IMG/VR virus record: IMGVR_UViG_3300017708_002093
Location: 1-58,251 of that record
Source: a virus
Length of the DNA: 58,251 nucleotides
Reading direction: 5' to 3' (one strand)
Part shown: piece after piece, positions 4,410 through 58,251 of the stretch
How the letters are laid out: every line of letters begins with the position of its first letter
Numbering within the stretch: position 1 is the first letter of the stretch
Made by a program: the position numbers and the translations under genes
Notes under the pieces: model-generated
What the model was told of the DNA's origin: nothing
Databases searched by the model: none
Seen by the model: only the letters and a program-made list of their open reading frames with translations

Positions 4410-5869
4410 TCTTTTATGTTAATAGGGATTATTTCATAGTTAAAGTTTTCTTCATTATAGATTTTGATTCTTTCTATAAAATGATTTAATGTATAATTTT
4501 TTCTTGAATTATAAGTACAATCATCAGAAATATCATAAAGAACTGCTTTGGTTTTGTTTGTTCCTTTCCTTAGTACTCTACCGATTGACTGCAAATTACG
4601 AATGCGTGATTTACTTGGGGAAGCAAAAACTACGTTATGTAGATTTTTAATATTAATTCCTGTTGAGAAAACTCCATAAGAAGCAATAATAACAGCATTA
4701 TTTTCTTTTTCAGTAATTTCTCTTATTTTTTCTCTCTCAGTAGTATCTACACCACCATGAACAAAGAAAACTTTTCTATTTTCTTGAACTGCATTATTTA
4801 TGAGTTCAAATAAAGGAGCACCATGTCCTTCTATTCTTGCAAAGAGTACAAGAGTATTTCCACTTAAATCTAATACAAGATTACGAATAAATTTATTTCG
4901 CTTTTCATGTCCTATAATAAATTGTACTTCATCTTCAAAAGTTTCAAATATCTGAGGATTATGTTTTAATGTAAGACATCGAATGTCTAATTTAGAAATG
5001 TGACCCTTATCCATCAACTCTTTTGTTCTTGTTACCTTGTATGATGGACCAAACACTCCCTCTAAGACCCACTTATGCGTCTGTGTGCCGTCTAAAGTAC
5101 CTGTGAACCCAAATCTATACTTACATGAGTGTAACTTCGACATGATGCTGATTAGAGACTTACTTTTAAATAAATGTGCTTCATCACCAATCACTACTTC
5201 GTAATCATTAAAAAACTTTTTCTCTAACTTATAAATTGATTGCCAAGTTGTAATAGTCACTTGGTGTTCATTTGTTTTCTCTCTTCCACTATAAATTTTA
5301 TGACAGTATGACTCAGCATCCCAACCGTAATCCTCAAAATCTTTGTACATCTGCTCTACTAGAGATGTCGTTGGAACAACTAAAAGAATTTTTTTACCTT
5401 TATCCACATAGTATCGTACAACAGAATAAATCATCAAAGATTTGCCACTTGCAGTGGGACTTATCAATAATTTTCTATTATACCTTAGAGCACCATGTAC
5501 TCCCTCAATTTGATAATTACGGGGAGAAAAAGAACAAATAGAATTCATGTAATCTTTTACACCTTCCATTGAGATTTCTTCATTTATCTCAAATGGAAGT
5601 CCATAAAATTTATTCTCTACAAACTCATAACTGTAATTGTGAATTTTTAATTTTGAAATAACTTTATCTAATAATCCAACATAGATTTCTCCAGTATGAA
5701 TTGAAAGAAGACGGATCATTCCGTCCCAATATTTACTTCTCATTTGAGGCATAAACTTTGCCCCTGGAACTTCAAATGTAAAGTACTCTTGTAGTTCATA
5801 TAAAATATGAGGTTCACATTCTAACTTAATGTAAACCTCATTCTTTTTATGTATTCTTACATCACACAT
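4406..5869 (-). CDS. uvsW: UvsW RNA-DNA / DNA helicase
   Basis: A 487-residue SF2 helicase close to T4 UvsW (about 500 aa). It has a small N-terminal DNA-binding region, motif I SPTASGKS at 137-144, VPTTSLVEQM (Ia), DEAH at 229-232, GFTGTLDGT (III) and SIGRVLRKG (VI). In T4 it unwinds origin R-loops and branched DNA, shifting replication from origin to recombination mode. An 8-bp inverted repeat spans the start codon (separate entry). It is followed with a 4-nt overlap by the Sm-like gene and preceded by the 60-residue gene and uvsY, the T4 uvsY-uvsW neighbourhood. Confidence 0.96.
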   Translation of the reverse strand: MCDVRIHKKNEVYIKLECEPHILYELQEYFTFEVPGAKFMPQMRSKYWDGMIRLLSIHTGEIYVGLLDKVISKLKIHNYSYEFVENKFYGLPFEINEEISMEGVKDYMNSICSFSPRNYQIEGVHGALRYNRKLLISPTASGKSLMIYSVVRYYVDKGKKILLVVPTTSLVEQMYKDFEDYGWDAESYCHKIYSGREKTNEHQVTITTWQSIYKLEKKFFNDYEVVIGDEAHLFKSKSLISIMSKLHSCKYRFGFTGTLDGTQTHKWVLEGVFGPSYKVTRTKELMDKGHISKLDIRCLTLKHNPQIFETFEDEVQFIIGHEKRNKFIRNLVLDLSGNTLVLFARIEGHGAPLFELINNAVQENRKVFFVHGGVDTTEREKIREITEKENNAVIIASYGVFSTGINIKNLHNVVFASPSKSRIRNLQSIGRVLRKGTNKTKAVLYDISDDCTYNSRKNYTLNHFIERIKIYNEENFNYEIIPINIKE

Positions 5870-5891
5870 AACATAATTAAACCTGTTATGT
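5865..5891 (-). promoter_or_regulatory. Hairpin across the uvsW start codon
   Basis: Perfect 8-bp inverted repeat CACATAAC/GTTATGTG with a 12-nt AT-rich loop. On the minus strand the uvsW ATG (5869-5867) lies within the 3' arm and AGG of a weak ribosome-binding site lies in the loop. A folded transcript could hide the start, as known for several T4 late/early genes. The stem is weak (3 GC pairs). Confidence 0.4.
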
Positions 5892-5895
5892 GTAT

Positions 5896-6078
5896 TTAGT
5901 TCATATTATCAAACTGATATTCTAATATTATCCTATAGAAGTTATCTCTCATAGCGATTAAATCTTCTTGCTCTTGTGGATCACCACCAGACCATTTCTG
6001 AACTGCTTGTGATAATCCTGTATGAATTGATCGAATTGCTTTGATAGGTAATTCTAAAATATAATATTGTTCTTCCAT
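5896..6078 (-). CDS. Conserved small hypothetical protein between uvsY and uvsW
   Basis: A 60-residue protein whose start overlaps the uvsY stop. It reads as a single soluble, mostly helical domain with features such as ELPIKAIRSIHTGL and KWSGGDPQEQEDL. I associate this sequence type with cyanophage genomes at the same place (memory, not searched). In T4, uvsW.1 is also a small gene here, but no similarity is clear. No catalytic motif or membrane segment is seen. Function unknown; probably co-expressed with the recombination genes. Confidence 0.8.
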   Translation of the reverse strand: MEEQYYILELPIKAIRSIHTGLSQAVQKWSGGDPQEQEDLIAMRDNFYRIILEYQFDNMN

Positions 6079-8614: not shown

Positions 8615-9712
8615 TCATGATTTGGACATTCTGGTCAGCATCTGAGCGTATGATGCAACTCTGGGATTAGAAATCTCAGAAGAAACATCAGCACCCTCGG
8701 TCAGCGTCTCAGTTTTTGTGTGTGGAGCAGCAGTATTTGAAGGGAAATAAGATTCCTTCAATGCCACTAACTTTTCACGATATTCTTTTTCACTTCCAAA
8801 CTCAACACTTTCGGCAAGTGAAGAGAGCTTCTCTTTCTGGCTCAGGGCAAGACCCTCAGCAATTTCTCCAAAGATTCCATCAGCAACCGACTCTGCGAGG
8901 CGCTTGTTTAATGATACATTCTTTTCGATCTGCTCGTTGAGTTTTGATTCCATTTCATCAAGTTTTTCTACCATGCTATTAAGTACATCATATTTTTCTT
9001 CAGGGATTGATACATAATGTTCTTCAAATAGATTTTTCAGACCTGACATGAATGACTCAGAGAGTTCTTCTTTCAGACCTTGCTCGACTGAGAGTTGATT
9101 TTCAGAAATCCACTCATCAGAAACATATTCAAGATAAGAATCTACACGCTCAGTAAGTGCTGCTTTAATTTCAGCAACTTCTTCGGTGAGTGCTTCTGCA
9201 TACTGAACTTCAAGTGATTCCTTAATTTCGGAAACTTTGGTGTTCAGTGCTGCTTCGAATACGACCTTTGCTTTCTCTTTAAACTCTTCGGAGAGTTCTT
9301 CATCAGTTTGAAGAATTGCATTCACATCTTCTTCAACGCTATATGCTTCTTCTGCAGATTCTTCTACTTCCTGTTCAGCAACAACTTCAGTTGCTCCTTC
9401 TTCAGTTTCGATTTCCTCTTCAGATACCACTTCTCCTTCAACTTCTTCTTCTTCTTTTACACCAGCAGGCATTGGATCTGCCTTACCAGCACCTTTATTC
9501 ACAACGTCATTTACAGTTTTTAGTGTAGGTTCTTTTAATTTTGCTGAATCGTCATCAGACTTATAATTCTCTGGTGTAGGACCACCAAGATCTTCATAAG
9601 AACCAGCGATAGAAGTATCCATTGAATCTCCTGTCTTTGCCTCAGCATTGACAGCAGTATTGGATTGTGATGTGCCTACTTCCATTTCGTGTAAATTTTC
9701 TCCACTAGACAT
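8615..9712 (-). CDS. 22: Prohead core scaffolding protein gp22
   Basis: A 365-residue, very acidic protein (T4: 269) located between gp21 and gp23. Long Glu-rich stretches at about 85-140 are followed by a helical, coiled-coil-like region (KVSEIKESLEVQYAEAL, ESKLNEQIEKNVSLNKRL) and end in RVASYAQMLTRMSKS, a tail common in gp22 proteins. It forms the internal scaffold on which gp23 assembles, and gp21 later digests it to peptides. A perfect late promoter lies about 40 nt upstream. The extra length is mostly in the acidic region. Confidence 0.92.
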   Translation of the reverse strand: MSSGENLHEMEVGTSQSNTAVNAEAKTGDSMDTSIAGSYEDLGGPTPENYKSDDDSAKLKEPTLKTVNDVVNKGAGKADPMPAGVKEEEEVEGEVVSEEEIETEEGATEVVAEQEVEESAEEAYSVEEDVNAILQTDEELSEEFKEKAKVVFEAALNTKVSEIKESLEVQYAEALTEEVAEIKAALTERVDSYLEYVSDEWISENQLSVEQGLKEELSESFMSGLKNLFEEHYVSIPEEKYDVLNSMVEKLDEMESKLNEQIEKNVSLNKRLAESVADGIFGEIAEGLALSQKEKLSSLAESVEFGSEKEYREKLVALKESYFPSNTAAPHTKTETLTEGADVSSEISNPRVASYAQMLTRMSKS

Positions 9713-9751
9713 TTGAACTCTCCGATGTTACCGTTTTTTTAAAACTATATT

Positions 9752-46993: not shown

Positions 46994-47395
46994 CTATCGT
47001 GTTTGCTGTAATGCAAATGATAATTGTTGCTGTGAAGCATTAATGCCTATGATTCTATAAGTTACTGATACATCAAATTCTAAAGTAGAGAAGTTTGGTA
47101 CTACTTTAACATCTAGTAAATTAACTCTTGGTTCATACAGATTGATTGATTCTCGAATCTGATCTTTAATAGTATCTGCAGAAAACTCACTCATGTTTTC
47201 AAATAAAGAGTTTGAAACAAAACTTCCAAAGTCTGGATCAAAAAACTTCTCTCCAGGTTGAGTTAATACAATATTACGAATAGAACGAGAAATTGCAGTC
47301 TCATTTTTGAGTGCAATCAAGTCATTATTCAGTGGATTCATTAGAAATGACCCACTGATATCTTTAAATCCTTTGCTTATTCGTTCTAAGGGCAT
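46994..47395 (-). CDS. 25: Baseplate wedge protein gp25 (lysozyme-like fold)
   Basis: A 133-residue protein (T4: 132). It contains the conserved EPR motif at 88-90 (NLYEPRVNLLDVKV), the SRSIRNIVLTQPGEKFFDPDFGS segment and a final QQQLSFALQQTR. gp25 joins sheath to baseplate and triggers sheath assembly. It leads directly into gp6, as in other cyanophages. A late promoter lies 22 nt upstream. Confidence 0.97.
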   Translation of the reverse strand: MPLERISKGFKDISGSFLMNPLNNDLIALKNETAISRSIRNIVLTQPGEKFFDPDFGSFVSNSLFENMSEFSADTIKDQIRESINLYEPRVNLLDVKVVPNFSTLEFDVSVTYRIIGINASQQQLSFALQQTR

Positions 47396-48627: not shown

Positions 48628-48793
48628 GAATTAACTCCAATTCAATTTTATCTGGATTATATGCACCAGTATCATAATACTCTGATGCTAGTTCGTCAAG
48701 TGCTTCTGTAACCTCTTCATACGTTAACTCAGAACGTATGACATCACCCTCATAAAGTATGTTGAATAAATTAGATGACTCTTGTTTTTTCAT
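48614..48793 (-). CDS. Small acidic hypothetical protein
   Basis: A 59-residue protein starting MKKQESSNLFNILYEGDVIR at 48793; a longer frame from 48847 would lie well inside the glycosyltransferase gene, so the inner ATG is preferred. It has the regular feature ELTYEEVTEALDELASEYYDTG, likely a helix plus a Tyr-rich turn, then ELELIHGKN. It overlaps the genes on both sides (23 nt and 14 nt). Function unknown. Confidence 0.75.
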   Translation of the reverse strand: MKKQESSNLFNILYEGDVIRSELTYEEVTEALDELASEYYDTGAYNPDKIELELIHGKN

Positions 48794-49565
48794 GCCCAAC
48801 ACGAATTCTTGGATCACACCAAATCTTAAACCCTGCCTCAATTGCATCTAAACAGAATGAGACATCCTCTCCACACATGTCTTGTACTGCACCAGATTCA
48901 AAAACTTGCATCTTTGGTGCAAACCATGGATACTTCATCTCTTCATTCTCAAAGACTCCTTTCTCAATCATCACCCACCCAAATCCAGTGTAGTCAACTG
49001 TAAATGGCTTACGACGCTTTGAGATTGTCTCACCAGTTTCATGATTCATGACTCCACCATTGTTTCGGAAGTCATCCTCATCTAACCAATGTGCAACTGA
49101 TGTAGTACGACCATCTTCTGTCATGTACCATCCAGCAGCAATAGATCTTTTCTTTGTCTCATCCTCTACTGCTTCTGCAGGAAATGCAAGATCACATAAT
49201 TGCCAGAACTTCTCACTACTAAACACAATGTCACTATCAATCCATAATTGATAATCATAATTTAACTTACCGCCCCATGGTATCTGATCAGGTCCTCTCA
49301 GTACATTCGCACCTAAACACTTACATCTTGCAAAGTTTACCATTGATGAGTAATCTTGACTAATCTGAATACTCATTCCATTCTGTACAAGATCAAAGCA
49401 TAGTTGTACAAAGTTTTTCAAATACGTATAAGAAACTCCTCTACCAGGTAGGCAAAATACAATTGCCTTTCCTTTCATTCTTTCCTTAATTGCATCATAG
49501 TCCCATTCAGACTCTGTTGATGCTTTCTCAGGCGCTTTTGCCTTTACTGTAAATCCTTTTGCCAT
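48771..49565 (-). CDS. Glycosyltransferase-like protein (GT-A fold)
   Basis: A 264-residue protein. After a short linker come CLPGRGVSYTYLKNFVQL, QISQDYSSMVNFARCKCLG, the DxD motif WIDSDIVF (D110, D112), TVDYTGFGWVMIEKGVFE and GEDVSFCLDAIEAGFKIWCDPRIRVGHEK (232-260). The DxD, the FGWVMI acceptor loop and the GEDVxF helix fit family-2-like transferases of the GT-A fold. A role in modifying virion sugar or host envelope is inferred only from family type. It has its own late promoter 36 nt upstream. Confidence 0.85.
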   Translation of the reverse strand: MAKGFTVKAKAPEKASTESEWDYDAIKERMKGKAIVFCLPGRGVSYTYLKNFVQLCFDLVQNGMSIQISQDYSSMVNFARCKCLGANVLRGPDQIPWGGKLNYDYQLWIDSDIVFSSEKFWQLCDLAFPAEAVEDETKKRSIAAGWYMTEDGRTTSVAHWLDEDDFRNNGGVMNHETGETISKRRKPFTVDYTGFGWVMIEKGVFENEEMKYPWFAPKMQVFESGAVQDMCGEDVSFCLDAIEAGFKIWCDPRIRVGHEKTRVI

Positions 49566-49613: not shown

Positions 49614-49805
49614 TCAATAACTTGCCTCTGCTAATTCTTGTCTATTATTCACAACTTCCTCAAATGTTAAATCTTCCCTTTGATACTCTGTGAATACTTC
49701 TACAAGATTATTCAGTGCTTCCCATGTTACATTAAACTCTGATTCACTCAGAGAATGGTAGATACAAGTATTCTTTGCGTATATGTGATAAACCTTTTCG
49801 CTCAT
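49614..49805 (-). CDS. Small conserved hypothetical protein
   Basis: A 63-residue protein starting MSEKVYHIYAKNTCIYHSLS; the upstream in-frame ATG at 49829 would add a run of Lys and Arg and is less likely. It is mostly aromatic and acidic, with NVTWEALNNLVEVFTEY and a final ELAEASY. I recall close relatives (MSEKVYHIYAK..., ...EASY) in cyanophage genomes. No motif for activity. Confidence 0.8.
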   Translation of the reverse strand: MSEKVYHIYAKNTCIYHSLSESEFNVTWEALNNLVEVFTEYQREDLTFEEVVNNRQELAEASY

Positions 49806-49981: not shown

Positions 49982-50297
49982 CAGAGGGGTTTCAGAGGGT
50001 TTATAAATTTGGGAAATTTTTTTATGAGCGTGATACTTATGTCGCAAAAGACATACAGTGTAGGTTAGGGTAGTGGGGGGTTTTATATACGCACGGCCCG
50101 TTAATAAGAATTAACAATTAATCGTAATACCTGTCTATTACTAATAACGAACAATCGTTATTCGTGCTTATTACTAATAACGAACAATTACTGTTTATTA
50201 TTAATAATTAACGATTACTATTTGTTACTTAGTAATCACTGTTTATTAGTAATAAGAACTGGTTGTCTATTACTAATAACGAAGAACTGTTTATTAG

Positions 50298-50332
50298 TAA
50301 TAAGAACTGTTTCGATCATTGTATATCGAACT
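50298..50332. repeat. 35-nt perfect direct repeat, copy A
   Basis: Identical to 50346-50380, 48 nt apart (two 24-nt periods). It starts TAATAAGAACTG and includes the TTCGAT...ATCGAA palindrome. Confidence 0.9.
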
Positions 50333-50345
50333 AGTTGTCTGTTAC

Positions 50346-50380
50346 TAATAAGAACTGTTTCGATCATTGTATATCGAACT
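50346..50380. repeat. 35-nt perfect direct repeat, copy B
   Basis: Second copy of the repeat at 50298-50332; it abuts the terminator-like hairpin at 50381. Confidence 0.9.
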
Positions 50381-50411
50381 GTGCCCCTCACGAATAACAC
50401 ATAAGGGGCAC
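50381..50411 (-). terminator. Terminator-like hairpin
   Basis: Perfect 8-bp stem GTGCCCCT/AGGGGCAC with a 15-nt loop, directly after the 52-residue gene on the minus strand. No long T run follows, so termination strength is uncertain. Confidence 0.6.
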
Positions 50412-50426
50412 ACAGTTAGCATCACA

Positions 50427-50585
50427 TTAGAACGCGATTGCCTCTCCGGAAGTGTAACTCACTGCGTCTCCTTGAGTATCATCAGAGGACGCATGATTGC
50501 CCTCAGCGATAACATCGAGAATGGACAGAATATCGTTTCCGGTGTTACCCTTACGAAGAAGAGTAAGCATCAGATTACGGGGCAT
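50427..50585 (-). CDS. Small conserved protein with GNTGNDIL motif
   Basis: A 52-residue frame, MPRNLMLTLLRKGNTGNDIL, SILDVIAEGN, then a Ser/Asp-rich tail ending SYTSGEAIAF. The pattern (A/T)LLRKGNTGNxIL.xLD is one I recall from small cyanophage and cyanobacterial proteins of unknown role. Codon use is GC-richer than the surrounding spacer, which supports a real gene. It is flanked by hairpins on both sides, so it looks like an independent cassette. Confidence 0.75.
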   Translation of the reverse strand: MPRNLMLTLLRKGNTGNDILSILDVIAEGNHASSDDTQGDAVSYTSGEAIAF

Positions 50586-51623: not shown

Positions 51624-51715
51624 ATAAGACCCTTAGGATACACTGAGACCTGAGATGAGTTTCTGTTGTTCTCAGAGGCATGTAGAGGGGTCTCAGTGTA
51701 TCCTAAGGGTCTTAT
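51624..51715. repeat. 27-bp perfect inverted repeat
   Basis: Arms 51624-51650 and 51689-51715, perfect over 27 bp, loop 38 nt. A nested 6-bp pair CTGAGA/TCTCAG (51650-51655, 51670-51675) lies at the loop edge. No T run follows on either side. It lies between the gene ending at 51742 and element copy 2. Confidence 0.9.
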
Positions 51716-52114: not shown

Positions 52115-52260
52115 ATTTCCACAAGGATTAGTGGTCTTAAGAGTACATTAATCATAAGGTTTTCCACACATAACCAATACTTTTCCACAGGTTTTCCACA
52201 CACAACAAAACACACAACATGATTAAAAATAACATTTAATTATCTTTTTAATGTATTTTA
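52115..52260. other. Candidate replication origin: DnaA-box cluster plus AT-rich DNA
   Basis: Within the gene-free stretch 51928-52322 the plus strand has three TTTTCCACA (52160-52168, 52181-52189, 52192-52200) and one ATTTCCACA (52115-52123). TTTTCCACA is the cyanobacterial form of the DnaA box. Starts are 21 and 11 nt apart, close to whole helical turns. A very AT-rich segment (52215-52260) follows, as in DNA-unwinding elements. The origin role is inference. Confidence 0.5.
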
Positions 52261-54523: not shown

Positions 54524-54664
54524 TCAGAATGAAATGTTGATTTTGTTTGTTGTATCAGGATTGACGATTTCTGCTGCATTGTTGAGACCATCAGCAGCAA
54601 TTCTTCGGGCGTCATCACTACTCCAGAACAGAATAGCGATGACAATCAGTGCAATAACTTTCAT
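54524..54664 (-). CDS. Very small secreted or membrane protein (46 residues)
   Basis: MKVIALIVIAILFWSSDDAR is a short hydrophobic N-terminal helix, which may be a signal or anchor, followed by RIAADGLNNAAEIVNPDTTN and KINISF. It sits between the 76- and 83-residue genes and starts 4 nt after the latter stops. No cysteine for lipidation. Role unknown. Confidence 0.75.
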   Translation of the reverse strand: MKVIALIVIAILFWSSDDARRIAADGLNNAAEIVNPDTTNKINISF

Positions 54665-57930: not shown

Positions 57931-58089
57931 TTATGCTGGTGTTACACTCCATTCATCTGTTGGAACCATTGTGTTGATAACATGCTCAACATTTTCAATT
58001 CCGTAGACTACAACTTTCTGAGTTGAAGAATAACCAGTTTTCTTCTCACGTTTCCATGAGACAATCCAGCGATCACATGATACTTTCAT
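57931..58089 (-). CDS. Small hypothetical protein (52 residues)
   Basis: MKVSCDRWIVSWKREKKTGY, SSTQKVVVYGIENVEHVINT, MVPTDEWSVTPA. Beta-rich with a Trp and Lys-rich start. Its ATG overlaps the stop of the upstream partial gene as ATGA, so the two are coupled. It starts an uninterrupted run with the HNH-like gene 3 nt later. No family recognised. Confidence 0.75.
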   Translation of the reverse strand: MKVSCDRWIVSWKREKKTGYSSTQKVVVYGIENVEHVINTMVPTDEWSVTPA

Positions 58090-58251
58090 ACCCAATTCCC
58101 CATAAACTCTTCAAGTGTGTAACCTTCACCAGTTGATGTTTCTTCAATCAATTGTTCGATTGTAAGTTCTTCCATCTCCTTACGATATTCTTCTGGTGTT
58201 GGATCTTCTGGGTCATAATCATCATGGCAGAGATAGTCCCACTCTGCCACA
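58086..58251 (-). CDS. Partial small acidic protein at the right edge
   Basis: C-terminal 54 residues of an acidic protein, VAEWDYLCHDDYDPEDPTPE, EYRKEMEELTIEQLIEETST, ending FMGNWV. The start lies outside the window. It overlaps the 52-residue gene as ATGA. Function not recognised. Confidence 0.7.
   Translation of the reverse strand, partial: VAEWDYLCHDDYDPEDPTPEEYRKEMEELTIEQLIEETSTGEGYTLEEFMGNWV

Follow-up and report, generated by a model that had tools for sequence, protein, structure and literature searches.

A lineage-specific 24-nt array of dyad repeats within the conserved junction ahead of g25 in a T4-like cyanophage

At the junction between the accessory genes and the g25 cluster of a T4-like cyanophage, we find a tandem array of short palindromes that is real, unusual and lineage-specific and that lies within a conserved setting. 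The DNA analysed here, which we call the window, is a virus record of 58,251 bp. We take it to be a fragment of a T4-like cyanophage because it encodes the portal, terminase, sheath, major head protein and baseplate wedge subunits. Its relatives are Kyanoviridae phages of Synechococcus and Prochlorococcus. Our tentative reading, which we hold with somewhat less than even confidence, is that the array arose by tandem, lineage-specific expansion of an operator-like dyad module in an early-promoter/leader spacer before the g25 cluster. If the dyads are operators, they would reveal a previously undescribed point of control where accessory transcription gives way to structural transcription, in marine phages that are abundant but little understood in their regulation.

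Genes at the junction are directed leftwards (Table 1). In that direction, the order is a small ORF, a hairpin, the array, a conserved noncoding element, the phrog_2626 gene, the phrog_1574 gene, a ferredoxin-family hit, g25 and g6, and the array occupies the spacer between the hairpin, which ends an accessory gene and is conserved in loci L021-L025, and the element ahead of the g25 cluster. The first-pass annotation had the array separate the structural from the accessory region, and the positions of g25 and of the small accessory ORFs above 50.4 kb bear this out. The product of the phrog_2626 gene gave no convincing match to DNA-binding proteins. Between accessory ORFs at 51624-51715, the window also contains a long inverted repeat (GACCCTTAGGATACACTGAGAC...GTCTCAGTGTATCCTAAGGGTC), which was detected only as weak matches to microRNA models.

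Table 1. Positions in the window of the features at and around the junction
Feature	Position	Strand	Remarks
g25	46994-47395		
phrog_1574 gene	48771-49565	-	conserved
phrog_2626 gene	49614-49805	-	63 aa; first gene downstream of array and element
Noncoding junction element	50016-50095	.	approximate limits; core TGTAGGTTAGGGTAG at 50059-50073, TTTTATATACGC at 50081-50092
Lineage-specific stretch	50105-50380	.	276 bp in the window versus 49 bp, array-free, in the closest relatives with both flanks
Two-dyad module	50136-50180	.	centres 50141 and 50174, 33 nt apart
24-nt tandem array	50189-50380	.	eight dyad units
B-type palindrome TTCGAT-N8-ATCGAA	50311-50330	.	centre 50320.5
Weak sigma-70-like promoter GTAACA-16-TACAAT	50318-50345	-	inside the array; 9/12, not above shuffles
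Second B-type palindrome	50359-50378	.	identical to 50311-50330; centre 50368.5
Hairpin GTGCCCCT...AGGGGCAC	50381-50411	-	after the upstream accessory ORF; terminator-like stem, T run absent
Small ORF MPRNLMLTLLRKGNTGNDIL...	50427-50585	-	52 aa; upstream neighbour of the array
Three DnaA-box-like TTTTCCACA, then AT-rich DNA	52160-52200	+	at 52160, 52181 and 52192; 41 bp; 1.8 kb from the array

The array is slightly bigger than first described, comprising eight dyads at a 24-nt step and the two dyads of the element-proximal module. The first-pass annotation had the step begin at centre 50249. The step is exact, but it starts earlier: a dyad that had been missed, GATTACTA-N9-TAGTAATC at 50213-50237, has its centre at 50225 in the 24-nt register, so that the step spans centres 50201, 50225, 50249, 50273, 50297, 50321, 50345 and 50369. 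Of six centres to which TTATTA-N-TAATAA had been assigned, four carry it in perfect form (TTATTANTAATAA), with C at the centre at 50174, T at 50201 and G at both 50249 and 50297, and these are the only four copies in the whole 58 kb. The other two, at 50141 and 50273, are CTATTACTAATAA, with arms of 5 bp and the outer pair absent. The TTCGAT..ATCGAA palindromes assigned to 50321 and 50369 were recovered, the minus-strand loop of the former containing a -10-like TACAAT, and the dyad at 50345 is imperfect, as had been reported. The two dyads of the module are separated by AATAACGA-ACAA-TCGTTATT.

Several statistics set this stretch apart. Self-similarity within the array is strongest at a lag of 48 and next strongest at 24, an independent run of TRF returned a period of 24, and in a period scan against dinucleotide shuffles 1 of 500 was equally good. 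Eleven inverted repeats (arms of at least 6, loops of at most 10) cover 172 of the 285 nt of the array region, the most palindrome-dense stretch of the window, and none of 2000 dinucleotide shuffles equals this, the maximum being 112 nt covered and 8 inverted repeats. When unit columns were permuted such that the 24-nt repeat was kept and the dyads were destroyed, the observed dyad score was matched in 0.05% of 20,000 trials. The units have diverged to about 65% identity with their dyad symmetry kept, and the copies at 50288-50332 and 50336-50380, which are 93% identical, are by their sequence a recent duplication. A step of 24 bp places adjacent sites on different faces of the helix.

Relatives of the junction were fetched with the phrog_1574 protein as the query. 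The closest relatives with both flanks (L021, L022, L025 and L271; about 82% identical to the window, with individual DNA identities of about 77-83%, and 90% for a short piece of L021) have about 49 bp between the flanks and no array, and in junction blastn comparisons their homology to the window ends at 50104 and restarts at 50381. The closest relative of all, L020 (93% at the DNA level), has a sequence that stops about 60 bp short of the array. Because it is missing from the closest relatives, the array is probably a regulatory addition that changes quickly rather than a fixed component of the core. Among 157 junctions, ATTANTAAT occurs only in the window (7 copies), L116 (2) and L184 (1); L279 and L280 fall outside this count, having been found later by a scan for the unit. 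L116, L279 and L280 have in common the two element-proximal dyads, 33 nt apart and at the same place beside the element (the TATTANTAATA pair), with the centre of dyad 1 being G, T or C across the three and its arms unchanged. In L116, the last base of the -10 box in TTTACA-N17-TATAGT is also the first base of dyad 1, and the -10 at the same place in L279 and L280 is the weaker TAAAGT. When L116 is aligned with the window, the dyads match at 22 of 22 positions and the rest of the spacer at 38 of 72, a contrast that is only supportive since the aligner favours such matches.

Two further lineages carry arrays of this period. The phage Sf-FR1 (PV340855) has six units of TATTAGTAATA/TAATACTAATA at 24-nt steps, located at 56.2 kb, about 3.8 kb ahead of g25 and directly before a homologue of the window's 52-aa ORF (58% over 26 aa). 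Its self-similarity lags are 48 and then 24, in the same order as in the window, and the two arrays belong to the same unit family (best ungapped score of 35, compared with at most 18 for shuffles). L066 has a 24/48-nt array of a different unit beside the element, 47 nt upstream of a TTGACA-N17-TATAGT early promoter, and this array has no palindrome with 6-bp arms. The L066 junction spacer holds two such tandem arrays (L066:5440-5570 and 5820-5932) together with several DnaA-like boxes, one of which is the perfect palindrome CCTGTGGAAAACTAGTTTTCCACAGG. Thus, the pattern that the first-pass annotation had named as pointing to neutral DNA, a region that varies among relatives without palindromes, is found at close range, but the two-dyad module or 24/48-nt arrays recur in L116, L279 and L280, in Sf-FR1 and in L066. 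On the accessory side of the junction, 72-nt tandem repeats (TCTATACGAATCTTATCTAATCACGAATGACTTT...) are present at L062:4770-5019, L133:7826-8003 and L252:993-1172.

Broader searches returned little. A strict search of viral contigs for the window unit gave no matches, and a generic palindrome-pair search of viral contigs gave 14 unrelated AT-rich loci, one of which (L003) is a further dyad-repeat array. TTCGAT-N8-ATCGAACTG matched 33 times, a number like that expected by chance, and a scan of genome contigs for triple units gave mostly uninformative TAA-type microsatellites. TATTASTAATA was rejected as a genome-wide regulon site, as it was not enriched over the reversed control across 12 cyanophage genomes. 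A match in S-8S53 was likewise rejected as an array, being a single unit counted twice where the ends of the record overlap.

An early-promoter/leader spacer with operator-like dyads is the best-supported reading because the spacers of relatives hold gene-strand sigma-70 promoters together with an ACAGT box. In the homologous spacer, 68 of 148 loci (about half) have a gene-strand promoter scoring at least 10.5, compared with 6 on the antisense strand. The gene-strand promoters usually lie 45-105 nt from the element and are followed by the ACAGT box, which the window units carry too. TATAGT is absent from the window at the homologous place. The position of the array relative to the promoter differs among lineages, being upstream in L066 and across the start in L116. 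At the Sf-FR1 array, no good promoter was seen, and dyads are not enriched at transcription starts across the family. Under the operator reading, the dyads would be putative binding sites of a dimeric DNA-binding protein of phage or host, which would control leftward transcription into phrog_2626, phrog_1574 and the g25 cluster, and the extra dyad copies would raise local occupancy. Dimeric repressors are known to use clustered operator arrays, with repeated dyads in promoter or leader regions. The window resembles these in having several dyad-symmetric copies of one site in such a region, with arms kept and a varying centre base. As to the promoter, dyad 1 overlaps one in L116, the -10 is weaker in L279 and L280, and the window has only a weak promoter-like site. 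The window differs in that the spacing is not helically phased, the array is not kept in close relatives and the binder is putative.

The regulatory array that the first-pass annotation had offered as one option therefore draws on the module of L116, L279 and L280, the -10 overlap and the early promoters of relatives, set against the array-free closest relatives; we consider a regulatory role moderately likely, with a putative mechanism. Its argument that variable centres and fixed arms indicate selection for a dimer site agrees with dyad 1 in those three loci but not with the absence of the array from the closest relatives or the lack of dyad enrichment at starts. The changes of centre base also have an alternative explanation to dimer binding, since they follow a G/C alternation that makes adjacent units complementary; this complementarity is full in Sf-FR1, where the alternation is clearest, and the alternation is also seen at 50249-50297 in the window. 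Reversed-strand copying was rejected as the source of the centre changes because the flanks of C- and G-centred copies share the same orientation. A MarR-type regulator has been described in cyanophage P-SSP7 (PMC9692554), and as a binder of these dyads it stays a lead only, with no matching motif reported and no such gene known in the phage studied here.

Nearly as likely as operator-dyad expansion is neutral or nearly neutral turnover, in which replication slippage and hairpin template switching would repeatedly build up and remove AT-rich tandem palindromes that have no role in binding, within a spacer that evolves quickly. We place it so close because the nearest relatives are array-free and other tandem repeats come and go in these phages, with periods as diverse as 21, 24, 35 and 72 nt. 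The L066 array without 6-bp arms and the recent duplication in the window fit turnover as well. It accounts less readily for the dyad symmetry that persists despite the divergence of the units, for the same two-dyad module at the same place in L116, L279 and L280, and for a period of 24/48 that three junction lineages share but that is seldom found in the other longer arrays of these phages. Complementarity between units raises a different explanation, that the array acts at the RNA level as tandem 5'-leader hairpins affecting transcript stability, processing or termination. Folding energies are indeed low, the MFE z-scores of the two strands being -5.4 and -6.0 in the window array, and -8.7 and -6.9 in the Sf-FR1 array; several adjacent units are complementary at 12 of 13 positions, and in the first Sf-FR1 pair (13 of 13) self-symmetry is broken but pairing is kept, with the alternating centres as described above. 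We nonetheless judge an RNA element highly improbable: the two strands fold to a similar degree, stems made only of AT pairs and closed by short loops have little stability, and dyad 1 of L116 overlaps the -10/start region and therefore cannot fold in that transcript. Rfam gave no match by which the array could be taken for a known RNA.

The first-pass annotation had also proposed an iteron-like origin or a partition-like site. No evidence supports the latter, as the ORFs next to the array have matches only to unknown, baseplate and ferredoxin families, with no parA/parB-type genes among these matches. That the array itself belongs to a replication origin at this junction in T4-like cyanophages, either as iterons or as AT-rich repeats for unwinding, is quite improbable, since neither the array nor the surrounding 50000-50450 contains a DnaA-like box and the nearest relatives lack the array. 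The array has a low melting stability, yet still lower values occur elsewhere in the window, and the detrended GC-skew extremes of S-SM2 lie at 47.3 and 121.4 kb with its element at 58.9 kb, although in these phages skew carries little evidential weight. Origins of the iteron or DnaA type include lambda ori iterons, T4 oriE and bacterial oriC. Short AT-rich tandem repeats and a junction with DnaA-box-like clusters recall such origins, whereas the window array has no initiator gene or box and is not conserved; L066 has boxes directly beside its 24-nt array.

What keeps the junction a candidate is the set of DnaA-box-like clusters found 0.5-2 kb upstream of it in many relatives, as well as in the window (TTTTCCACA, which we take to be the cyanobacterial DnaA box). 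TTWTCCACA reaches 1.34 per kb at 0.5-1 kb upstream of the element, compared with at most 0.07 downstream; control 9-mers in that upstream bin reach 0.007. A cluster lies within 3 kb upstream in 14 of the 42 loci with enough sequence, and within 3 kb downstream in 1 of 118. The clusters of Sf-FR1 (54558-54590), S-SM2 (58064-58093) and S-PM2 (S-PM2d 9689-9722) are on the same side of g25; in Bellamy, SynMITS9220M01, ACG-2014f and others, the boxes are scattered without a cluster. TTWTCCACA clusters were also noted in L066, L132, L123, L204 and L059. On these sequence grounds, the junction may be an origin region, with the array itself lacking an origin signature. A fuller proposal, which we consider rather unlikely, is that replication of many T4-like cyanophages starts at the junction ahead of g25. 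In this scheme, the TTWTCCACA clusters would be sites for host DnaA, and early transcription across the TGTAGGTTAGGG element or the AT-rich 24-nt arrays would assist in DNA opening, an arrangement that would differ from the known T4 origins. With its element in 170 distinct loci, early promoters and DnaA-box clusters, the junction is a specific and testable place for such an origin, and the element and the clusters are more promising leads than the array. One theta origin has been predicted in Syn9, according to a review (PMC2984593). A limited literature set yielded no paper on DnaA-box clusters at the cyanophage junction.

Other families of repeats offer partial parallels to the array. REP and BIME sequences are interspersed intergenic palindromes; the window palindromes are likewise repeated and intergenic, but they are confined to one junction array with a period of 24/48 and are not dispersed over the 58 kb. 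A CRISPR-like array was rejected because the units are shorter and more divergent than such an array would have. PeSL (promoter early stem-loop) cassettes are known in T4-type phages (Arbiol 2010; Comeau 2014, via PMC4503421), where they combine an intergenic stem-loop with an early promoter in regions of gene shuffling; several relatives of the window have this layout here. In the window, the hairpin directly adjoins the array. The window array differs in that it has no strong early promoter of the kind present in relatives, and PeSLs as described in that source are not 24-nt tandem dyad arrays; nor is the array a repeated cassette, as its DNA matches only itself within the 58-kb fragment.

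The conserved noncoding element beside the array is newly seen and widely conserved. A profile of TGTAGGTTAGGGTAG...TTTTATATA places it ahead of the g25 cluster in all of the distinct cyanophage loci counted above, many of which were fetched using the core itself, and a unique copy is present in 42 of the 80 loci fetched independently with the phrog_1574 protein. It occurs as a single copy per locus. Isolates in which the core, followed by TTTTATATA, holds this position include Bellamy, S-SM2, S-SCSM1, S-B05 and S-SRM01, and diverged forms are present in ACG-2014f and S-T4. Rfam gave no match to the element, and a search for conserved RNA structure in it found none. About 10 bases left of the core, there are discrete alternative forms (TTGTCACCTC, AAAGACATACAG, GTATATACTTT, GGTCCGT and GTAACACTT). 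The linear record PV261924 (RN05-S, L262) stops 64 nt beyond the start of the core, beside a run of nine G residues; this end may be a genuine terminus or may reflect a break in the assembly. In L265-L267 (S-SRM01, ACG-2014f and S-T4), the gene that follows the element differs: it is phrog_2626 in the window, is annotated as a DNA-binding-domain protein in S-SRM01 and appears AbrB-like by eye in ACG-2014f.
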